From assembly GCA_026708035.1 (NCBI GenBank), contig JAPOVQ010000012.1:1-64000 (forward strand): DNA of 64,000 nucleotides, read 5' to 3'. The position numbers were made by a program, and so were the translations under genes. The notes under the pieces were generated by a model that searched no databases, had not been told where the DNA came from, and was given only the letters and a program-made list of their open reading frames with translations. The stretch comes from Chloroflexota bacterium. GTDB taxonomy: Bacteria; Chloroflexota; UBA11872. Shown piece after piece: positions 36,020 to 39,818 of this stretch (the stretch's first letter is position 1; every line of letters begins with the position of its first letter).

Positions 36020-38916
36020 TCTTCTCGGGGGTCGGCGCCGCCGGGCGCACCGTGCTGGCCCTCGTCGGATTCGCCGCGCGGAGGCTGCGCAGAAACCCGA
36101 TACACGCCCTCACCACGCTGCTGGGACTGTCTCTCACGGTCGGCGTGGTCACCGCCGTGCCGCTCTACGCCGAGGGCATGAGCACCCGCCTGCTGCGCGA
36201 GCACCTGCGCGCCTCGCCGGAGCCGCTCGACCTGGGCGTGGTGATCGAGCACGGCGAAGCGCAGCTGCCGGACGATCTCACGACATCGCTGGCGGCATAC
36301 CGGCGAGCCGACCGGTTCTTGGGTGAGGCCGTCGCGACCCATCTGGGCGTTCCCTCGTCAGCCATCGTGCGCTTGGTGAAATCCGACAACCGGCACCTGC
36401 TCTTCACAACCGACGACCCGGACGCGCCCCTGCGCGAGGGCGTTCCGTGGGGCGGGTTGGCCGCGATTTCCGGGCTGGCCGAAAACGTCGAAATACTGGA
36501 AGGCCGCGCGGCCACTGACGAGGTCTACACGCTGCGCATGCCGTCCGGCGCGCTGGTTCCCCTGGTGGAGGCCGTTGCCGCAACGGACATGCTCGACGCC
36601 GGGGGCCTGGTGGTTGGGGACCAGGTGCAGCTGCGCTTCGGCGACCCGCGGGCGCTTGACACACCGCAGGCGGTCGTCGCCGTCGACATCGTGGGACGCT
36701 TCGCACCCATCGACGGGCGCCACGCCTACTGGCCCGAGGATGTCGAGGAGCTGACGGCGCGCACCCTGTTCACGCCGCCGGCCGCATTCGTCGACGGTCT
36801 GCTGGCGCGCTATCCCGACGTTTCGCATCCGCGGCTCCTGGACCGCGCGGTGTGGTTCGCTCCGCTGGACGCCGTCGCGCTGCAGGCGTCGTCCGCCGGT
36901 CGGACGCGCGAGGGAATCTTCGCCGTGCGCACGATTGCCGAGCGGGTGCTGCCGTATATGAGCGTGCAGACTCGCTTGGAGCGCGACCTCGAACGGTTCG
37001 AGGGCCGCCTGGTGGTGCTCACCGTGGCCCTGCTGGCGCTCAGCGTGCCCATTGTCCTGATGGTGCTGGGGTTCATGCGGCTCTCGGTGTCGCTGGCCAT
37101 CGAACGGCAGCGCCAGGAGGTGGCGCTGCTGCGCAGCCGCGGGGTGGGCGTGATCCAACTGGTCGGCGTGTATCTCATCGAGGGGCTGCTGATCGGGGCG
37201 CCGGCGCTGGCAATAGGCCTGGTGCTGGGCGTGGGCTTTGCCCAGGCCATCGGACAGACGGCGAGCTTTCTAGCCTTCGACGCCCGAGCGCCGCTGGACA
37301 TTGCGCTGACGGGGAACCAGGTTGCCGTTGGCGCAGCGGCAATCGGGGTCAGTCTGCTGGCGATGCTGGGGCCGGTCGTGGCGGCGGCCCGACTGAGCAT
37401 CGTGGGCGCCAAGCAGCAGGCCTCGCGGAGCCTCGATCGACCGCTCTATCAACGGCGGCTGCTCGACGTGCTGCTGCTGGCAGCGGCGGTTGCAGGGTTC
37501 TACCTGTTGCGGACCGTGGACGCACTGCCCGGCGAGACCGAGGACGACCTGCTGCTGGCCGACACGCTGCTGGTATTGGCGCCGATACTCTTTATCTTCG
37601 CGGTTTCGGTCTTCGCCCTCCGCGCCTTTCCGCATCTCGTGCGGACGCTCGCCGCGCTCACCTCGCGGGTATCCGGCGTCAGCGCCTTCGTGGCCCTGCG
37701 CCAAATCGGACGCAGCCCGGCCCACTACACCAGCCTCGTCTTGCTGCTCTCGCTGACCTTTGCCCTGGGGGCCTTCAGCGCGTCGTTTGCGGCCACGATC
37801 GATCGCAACATCATCGATCGCGTCTACTTCGCGACCGGGGCCGACGCCCGAATTGTCGAGAGCGGGCACTTCGACGCCGACACTCAATCCTGGTACATCG
37901 CCCCGGTGGATCGGCACCTGGACGTGGTGGATGCCGGCGGCCGGCAGGTCGTCACGGAAGCGGCGCGACACTGGGTCAAGAACGCGCTGTTGCACGTCGA
38001 CACGCCGTCGGTGAACGCACTGCGCGAGGTTCGGCTGCACGCGGTCGACCCGATTCCCTTCGCCCGGACCGTCGCGTGGCGCGAAGACTACGCGCCGGCT
38101 TCGCTCAACGGGCTCGCCAATGCGCTCGCCGCCGACGACCGCGGCGTGATCCTGGAGCGCGCACCGTTTCACGAGACCATGGGCGTGCAGCTTGGCGATT
38201 CCGTGACGATGGAGATCAATCGGGTGGTGGTGCCGTTCGTGGTGGTGGGCTGGATGGATGCGCTGCCGGGCCACAGTCGAGGTTTCGGCTCATTCGCCCT
38301 CGCCAATCTCCCCTACGTCGACCGCGTGGTTGGGCGCTCGCCGTGGGGGACCTATGTGCAGCTGCTGCCCGACGCGCCGGCCCAGGAACTCATCCAACCC
38401 TTGAACGACCTCGACATCCGGGCGCTGCGCACCGTGGACGCCAGGGACGAAATCGTCCAAGCGCGCCGCGACGCCGTGCTCGTCGGCACGTTTGGCTTGC
38501 TGACGCTGGCGTTCATCGTTGCCGCGGGCCTCACCCTCAGCGGCTTCGGCATGCACGCGGTCCTGTCGTTTCGCCGGCGCGTGCAGGAGTTCGGCATCCT
38601 GCGCGCCATGGGGATTTCCACGCGCCAGATGGCCGCCATCGTGGCGCTGGAGCAAGGATTTCTGGTGCTGCTCGGCACGGCCGTGGGGACGGCCATCGGC
38701 ATGGTGACCGCCGCGCTGTTCGTGCCGTTCCTCGAGCTCAGCGCCGGAGAGCGCGAGGCGTTTCCACCCTTCATCGTCGATAGCGCCTGGGACGACGTCG
38801 CCAAGATCTACGTGGTGTTCGGCGTGCTCATCGCCGCGGCGTTGCCGCTCTCGATTTGGCTCCTGCGGCGCGTGCGCACCCACGAGGCCATCAAGTTTGG
38901 CGAGGAATCCGGATGA
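36016..38916 (+). CDS. FtsX/MacB-like ABC transporter permease
   Basis: A 966-residue permease with duplicated FtsX-like units. An N-terminal helix (about 35-56) is followed by a large extracytoplasmic MacB_PCD-like domain. The first FtsX block (near residues 330-465) has LSVSLAIERQRQEVALLRSRGVG, the usual coupling helix. A second extracytoplasmic domain and a final FtsX block follow, containing MHAVLSFRRRVQEFGILRAMG (near 860). GTG start, overlapping the adaptor stop; its own stop overlaps the ATPase start by 4 bp. It likely transmits ATPase motion to export lipids, peptides or lipoproteins. Confidence 0.88.
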   Translation: MIFSGVGAAGRTVLALVGFAARRLRRNPIHALTTLLGLSLTVGVVTAVPLYAEGMSTRLLREHLRASPEPLDLGVVIEHGEAQLPDDLTTSLAAYRRADRFLGEAVATHLGVPSSAIVRLVKSDNRHLLFTTDDPDAPLREGVPWGGLAAISGLAENVEILEGRAATDEVYTLRMPSGALVPLVEAVAATDMLDAGGLVVGDQVQLRFGDPRALDTPQAVVAVDIVGRFAPIDGRHAYWPEDVEELTARTLFTPPAAFVDGLLARYPDVSHPRLLDRAVWFAPLDAVALQASSAGRTREGIFAVRTIAERVLPYMSVQTRLERDLERFEGRLVVLTVALLALSVPIVLMVLGFMRLSVSLAIERQRQEVALLRSRGVGVIQLVGVYLIEGLLIGAPALAIGLVLGVGFAQAIGQTASFLAFDARAPLDIALTGNQVAVGAAAIGVSLLAMLGPVVAAARLSIVGAKQQASRSLDRPLYQRRLLDVLLLAAAVAGFYLLRTVDALPGETEDDLLLADTLLVLAPILFIFAVSVFALRAFPHLVRTLAALTSRVSGVSAFVALRQIGRSPAHYTSLVLLLSLTFALGAFSASFAATIDRNIIDRVYFATGADARIVESGHFDADTQSWYIAPVDRHLDVVDAGGRQVVTEAARHWVKNALLHVDTPSVNALREVRLHAVDPIPFARTVAWREDYAPASLNGLANALAADDRGVILERAPFHETMGVQLGDSVTMEINRVVVPFVVVGWMDALPGHSRGFGSFALANLPYVDRVVGRSPWGTYVQLLPDAPAQELIQPLNDLDIRALRTVDARDEIVQARRDAVLVGTFGLLTLAFIVAAGLTLSGFGMHAVLSFRRRVQEFGILRAMGISTRQMAAIVALEQGFLVLLGTAVGTAIGMVTAALFVPFLELSAGEREAFPPFIVDSAWDDVAKIYVVFGVLIAAALPLSIWLLRRVRTHEAIKFGEESG

Positions 38917-39818
38917 GCGACGCGGTACACGTGCGCTGCCAGGACCTGGTGCGGATCTACAAGGTCGCCGAGCTGGAGGTCGTCGCGCTGCGCGGCCTCA
39001 ATCTCGAAGTGGCCGCGGGCGAAATGATGGCGATCGTGGGCAACAGCGGCAGCGGCAAGAGCACGCTGCTCAACATCCTGGGCGGGCTCGACCGGCCGTC
39101 GGCGGGCGCGTGCAGTGTCGGCGGGATCGATCTGGTCAACGCCTCGGGCGCGGAGCTGGCGGAATACAAGCGCTACGACGTGGGATTTGTGTGGCAGCAG
39201 AGCGCGCGCAACCTCATCCCCTATCTCAGCGCCCTGGACAACGTGCTGGCGCCCATGCTGTTCGCGGGCGGCGCGGGGCCGACGGAGCAGCGCCGGGCGC
39301 GGGAGCTGCTGGCGGCGTGCGGACTGGCGGAGCGGATGAGCCATCGGCCGCCGCAGCTTTCGGGCGGCGAGCAGCAGCGCGTGGCGATCGCGGTGGCGCT
39401 GGCCAACGAGCCCGAGCTGCTGCTGGCGGACGAGCCCACGGGTGAGGTCGACAACCAGACGGCCGGCGACATCTACGATCTGCTGCGGCGGCTCAACGCG
39501 GACCGTCGCCTCACGGTGATGATCGTGACCCACGACCGGGACGTCACGCGCCACGTGGACCGGGTGGTGGCGATTCGCGACGGGCAGACCAGTTCGGAGA
39601 TCGTGCGGCGCGTGGGCCTGCCGGGCGCCGACGAGCCGGCGCACGAGGAGTACGTGATCGTCGACGAAACCGGCCGCCTGCAGATTCCCCGCGACTATCT
39701 CGAGGAGCTGGGCATTTCCGGACGCGCGACCGTGGACGTGGACGCCGACGAGGGACGGCTGGTGGTGCGGCCGGCGGAATCCTCCGGCGAGCGCGACGGA
39801 ACCGAGGCCAAGCCATGA
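38913..39818 (+). CDS. ABC ATPase with C-terminal AbrB-like domain
   Basis: A 301-residue ATPase of the MacB/LolD group: Walker A at 43-51 (GNSGSGKST), signature LSGGEQQR at 149-156, Walker B LLLADEP at 169-175 and switch His207. Residues about 246-288 form an extra tail ([10 protein letters not shown]...[11 protein letters not shown]) matching the swapped-hairpin AbrB/MraZ pattern, usually a DNA-binding or dimerisation module. The ATG overlaps the permease stop by 4 bp. The tail might dimerise the ATPase or sense a signal; the function is unknown. Confidence 0.9.

Follow-up and report, generated by a model that had tools for sequence, protein, structure and literature searches.

An ABC ATPase encoded in the 64,000-nucleotide stretch of Chloroflexota DNA analyzed here (the window) ends in a domain of the AbrB/SpoVT/MazE swapped-hairpin superfamily. 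We slightly favor the reading that this protein, NBD1, is one of two ATPases of a heterodimeric type VII exporter and that its linker-borne tail has given up DNA binding and now serves as a dimerization module. The operon and the parts of NBD1 are as follows.

34409 to 36019, plus strand: HlyD/MacA-like membrane fusion adaptor (HlyD_D23, E = 6e-8; HlyD_3, E = 1e-5; RND_mfp, E = 9e-21)
36016 to 38916, plus strand: permease of 966 amino acids with ∼10 transmembrane (TM) helices, an approximate count from a simple hydropathy estimate (FtsX, E = 9.9e-21 in two stretches)
38913 to 39818, plus strand: NBD1, an ABC ATPase with a C-terminal AbrB-like domain, 301 amino acids (ABC_tran, E = 9.5e-30)
38913 to 39602, plus strand: LolD/MacB-type nucleotide-binding domain of NBD1 (residues 1 to 230)
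39603 to 39641, plus strand: linker of NBD1 (residues ∼231 to 243), modeled with low confidence in the full-length protein
39642 to 39782, plus strand: AbrB/SpoVT/MazE-fold tail of NBD1 (residues ∼244 to 290), with the pattern E..VxxD..GRxQxP followed by a beta-hairpin
39859 to 40680, plus strand: NBD2, the partner ATPase without a tail (ABC_tran, E = 8.7e-33; clade N2)

The original prediction placed a swapped-hairpin domain at residues ∼246 to 288. The translation of the NBD1 frame was confirmed, and the hairpin motif cited in that prediction was found at residues 250 to 276. Taken alone, the window protein is suggestive of an AbrB-type tail: the tail scores 19.8 bits against Pfam PF04014 (MazE_antitoxin; E = 8e-4), below the cutoff of 24.7, and matches PRK08577 with an E value of 8e-5, and a 12-sequence profile matches AbrB (PDB 1z0r; E = 3e-3). 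The assignment becomes firm once relatives are added. The tails of two family members exceed the PF04014 cutoff (35.7 bits [E = 8e-9] and 27.1 bits). Furthermore, a profile of 44 tails aligns over 46 columns with one built from solo AbrB proteins of related genomes (score, 37.1; P = 6e-7), while the maximum score among 40 column-shuffled control profiles was 17.9.

AlphaFold2 predicts a strand-strand-helix-strand-strand (hairpin-helix-hairpin) layout for the tail alone (pLDDT, 79). The top eight Foldseek matches of this model in the PDB (best E, 0.06) and 17 of 17 VIA-align rows (best Z, 4.7 over 50 residues) are all AbrB/SpoVT/MazE/VapB-like; each single match is weak, as expected at 50 residues, and the weight lies in the unanimity of the top rows. 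The closest structural neighbors are SpoVT, AbrB, MazE, Sso7c4, and archaeal histone-like AbrB proteins; the comparison covers the fold families listed by the fold search, and both the tail model and its PDB matches are moderately strong at best. Taken together, the profiles, the modeled structure, and the fold search confirm the predicted hairpin domain. Membership in MraZ, on the other hand, is not indicated: the MraZ profile reached at most 21 bits on the tails scanned (cutoff, 23), and the tail holds a single domain. MraZ consists of two tandem domains.

Some other resemblances were set aside. Window residues 244 to 268 resemble the Ffh/SRP54 segment VILDTAGRLQ, and SRP54/Ffh proteins give the best PDB sequence matches to the first 25 tail residues, through a short VIxDTAGRL inside a GTPase domain. 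We judged this similarity coincidental, and not a sign of a common fold, because all 46 columns and the model match AbrB. The SMC, AAA, and similar Pfam matches are P-loop background, and the PADLOC matches to mad3, mad8, and AriA reflect only the common ATPase core.

The part of NBD1 that precedes the tail is of the MacB type, as originally proposed. It has the full set of ABC motifs, including a Walker A motif (GNSGSGKS), a signature motif (LSGGEQQR), and the loop histidine H207. The best models for this part are LolD (E = 5.6e-65), MacB (E = 2e-60), and YbbA, all with scores below the equivalog cutoffs, and we therefore call the protein LolD/MacB-type rather than LolD itself. The family is marked by WQQ at the Q-loop (39 of 44 tail-bearing sequences versus 0 of 42 partner ATPases) and by DGxTSxE after the core, from which a linker of 6 to 38 residues (counted from DG to the first Glu of the domain) leads to the tail. 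The genome of origin encodes many further ABC ATPases, and the nearest of these (≤47% identity) stop soon after the core, without an AbrB tail. The same holds for NBD2, which has no AbrB match and whose family ends shortly past the ATPase core, in agreement with the original observation that the partner lacks the hairpin.

The adaptor has a lipoprotein-like signal (LAAC); its start at the ATG at 34409 is our choice in a frame that is open from 34250. The permease, whose stop codon overlaps the NBD1 start codon (ATGA), consists of two halves that resemble MacB/FtsX and has two large extracytoplasmic loops (∼230 to 290 amino acids), i.e., a full transporter in one chain. It has the double-permease architecture of the MacB superfamily seen in YbbP/BceB, with two 4-TM halves and linking TM helices, and the ∼10-TM, two-loop plan recurs in ∼35 loci. 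YbbP has likewise been described as fused MacB units that have two linking helices and carry two periplasmic domains (PMC5985334). The E. coli YbbAP/BceAB-type systems (MacB superfamily, type VII ABC) resemble the window system in the two-unit permease with linking helices and the separate LolD-like ATPase, but they use only one kind of ATPase (YbbA or BceA), which lacks an AbrB tail, whereas the window system has two different ATPases and usually an adaptor. YknXYZ and MacAB share the HlyD/MacA-like adaptor beside a LolD-like ATPase and an FtsX-type permease; unlike the window system, they have a half-size permease, one kind of ATPase, and no AbrB domain.

To establish how often the fusion occurs, we searched with a full-length profile (E ≤ 1e-85), and all matches listed extend through the tail. 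End-to-end orthologues of NBD1 were found in at least 83 of 251 sampled genomes of Chloroflexota, at least 9 of 246 of Actinomycetota, at least 7 of 249 of Bacillota, and at least 13 of 96 from the order of Anaeromicropila populeti (phylum Bacillota), all of which are lower bounds as few candidates were scored per genome. None was among the matches listed for 200 Pseudomonadota genomes. The fusion is therefore a conserved family in Chloroflexota, Actinomycetota, and Bacillota. Members on Paenibacillus, Kitasatospora, and Streptomyces clavuligerus replicons carry the RefSeq names "ATP-binding cassette domain-containing protein" or "ABC transporter ATP-binding protein," which mention the ATPase only. 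We found no description of an AbrB-ABC ATPase fusion in the literature searched, a weak negative given that coverage was incomplete, with subscription papers mostly outside it.

Several members vary around the domain. In four actinomycetotal loci (L205, L206, L207, and L208), the motif residues D, R, and Q are replaced (EYAVVGPTGSLHLP) while the remaining domain pattern is kept. In L103, L105, L118, and other Chloroflexota loci, short basic-hydrophobic C termini follow the AbrB domain (RGLFRRRAG, RGLRGLLRR, and KKWINLLQRRR); these are possibly membrane binding.

In a tree of 100 ATPase cores, all 44 tail-bearing sequences (N1) fall on one side of a single branch (support, 100/99), and the partner ATPases (N2) form a separate group (99/96). 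The N2 group holds one extra sequence, from a Ktedonobacterales genome that also carries a tail-bearing ATPase, and this sequence is probably the partner of that ATPase. The sequences from Clostridia nest within those from Chloroflexota, which suggests transfer.

NBD2 was found near NBD1 in 54 of 58 loci, most of which also have the double permease; of the four loci without a nearby NBD2, three lie on short contigs or close to the end of a contig. The pair persists across different gene orders: most Chloroflexota have adaptor-permease-NBD1-NBD2, Lachnospiraceae and their relatives have permease-NBD2-NBD1, and other Bacillota have NBD2-adaptor-permease-NBD1. Five genomes of the Chloroflexota genus g119 join NBD1, the AbrB domain, and NBD2 in a single uninterrupted frame (86 to 100% identical; for example, the 576-amino-acid product of plus-strand ORF 7496 to 9223 in locus L119, G187:C1:2862200-2878200), while in sister genera the two ATPases are encoded by separate adjacent genes. 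The suggestion that the tail marks a heterodimer is thus supported by the two ATPase clades, their constant pairing, and the natural fusion, which together with the NBD1-specific WQQ argue for a 1:1 NBD1/NBD2 heterodimer. Gene pairing and fusion imply two ATPases per permease, and with the adjacency in sister genera, each double permease would in the simplest assembly have one NBD1 and one NBD2. One unusual neighbor for an exporter operon was noted in L215, on a Paenibacillus cellulosilyticus plasmid, where a gene for an extracellular solute-binding protein (8879 to 10441, plus strand) follows NBD1 in the same direction.

The tail shares its fold and core pattern with AbrB/SpoVT/MazE transcription factors and antitoxins, from which it differs in being attached to an ABC ATPase and in its DNA-contact positions. 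We compared 44 tails with 27 distinct solo domains of the AbrB/MazE type encoded in the same genomes or in related ones, using the DNA-face segment and single columns since the net charge of the whole tail is uninformative on DNA binding. Basic residues occupy the AbrB K9 column in 0% of tails and 70% of solo domains (Fisher P = 3e-11), the Lys column before the GR/GQ pair in 0% and 74% (P = 4e-12), and the R23 column in 11% and 62% (P = 1e-5), although these P values overstate independence, as tails and solo domains are each related within their set. Most hydrophobic core columns, on the other hand, are kept in tails at 86 to 100%. The proposed DNA contacts of AbrB are R8, R15, R23, and R24 (PMC4022651); the corresponding columns are basic in 0%, 100%, 11%, and 0% of tails, the R24 column is acidic in 93%, and the former DNA-face positions are hydrophobic or acidic. 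The R15 equivalent is the only invariant Arg (44 of 44 tails). However, AbrB R15A retains DNA binding and is instead changed in its oligomer state (PMC4022651), so the kept residue alone is no argument for DNA binding. Across six genomes of the same genus, no conserved inverted repeat or palindrome was found upstream of the operon, and a promoter and terminator scan of the region returned one promoter-like site, inside a gene and near the shuffled expectation. DNA binding and autoregulation by the tail are therefore not supported, and the loss of DNA-face residues together with the lack of an upstream repeat leads us to read the tail as a protein-protein module.

In the mechanism that we propose, the exporter would be MacB/YbbP-like (type VII) and consist of the lipoprotein adaptor, one ∼10-TM double permease, NBD1, and NBD2, with the swapped-hairpin domain held on the flexible linker of NBD1. 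In known members, the AbrB/MazE fold is an intertwined (interleaved) dimer. As NBD2 offers no second copy and the linker spans 6 to 38 residues, pairing of the tails of two NBD1 subunits would be a natural consequence; and with apparently one NBD1 per transporter, such pairing would join transporters. Tail pairing would thus either couple two transporters or keep two NBD1 subunits bound to each other, and it may thereby organize or tune ATP hydrolysis. A more specific version, which we put forward tentatively, is that a single recruitment event placed the domain on one ATPase of an asymmetric ABC exporter with a double permease, where it tethers two complete transporters on the cytoplasmic side. 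Several loci (L113, L121, L126, L127, L129, L130, L199, L203, and L216) encode two different full-length (∼10-TM) permeases with a single NBD1 and a single NBD2, and the tails might join the two permease complexes of such operons. Two features speak against the favored reading: the invariant R15 equivalent is a proposed DNA contact, and the E, D, R, and Q of the tail are so nearly invariant as to hint that it has a particular ligand or partner in addition to dimerizing.

Alternatively, the tail could be a cis-acting regulatory domain that contacts its own NBD2 or permease and, rather than joining transporters, senses a ligand or state. ABC ATPases often carry a regulatory domain at the C terminus, as in MetN and MalK, homodimeric importer ATPases with ACT-like or OB/TOBE folds (MetN matched NBD1 as an ATPase only). 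The hydrophobic residues in place of the strand 1 DNA face could form a docking surface, and the g119 fusion places the AbrB domain between both ATPases. However, an AbrB half-barrel is normally unstable on its own and needs a second copy, which NBD2 cannot supply; the linker is long and variable; and the position of the tail is not confident in the full-length model; we regard this alternative as rather unlikely. It is improbable that NBD1 and NBD2 instead form separate homodimers, with the tail enforcing NBD1-NBD1 pairing and two kinds of transporter sharing the permease: an AbrB-type domain favors homodimers and the loci with two permeases would fit, but one genus keeps the NBD1-AbrB-NBD2 fusion and the permease, like those of asymmetric systems, already has both halves in one chain. 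Least likely of all, despite the AbrB/MazE fold and the invariant R15 equivalent, is the original proposal of a working DNA-binding domain through which the expression of the operon is repressed or sensed, given the lost basic positions, the lack of a kept upstream repeat, and the poor siting for operator binding that would be expected of an ATPase bound to a membrane permease.

These proteins represent an apparently undescribed, widespread subfamily of MacB-type exporters, mainly in monoderm phyla, with a signature of E..VxxD..GRxQxP after DGxTSxE and a fixed asymmetric ATPase pair. They are also a clear case of a "DNA-binding" fold that has lost its DNA face, and a caution that such tails should not be annotated as regulators. 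Tail pairing, if it occurs, would make the higher-order assembly of type VII ABC transporters via their ATPases directly testable.
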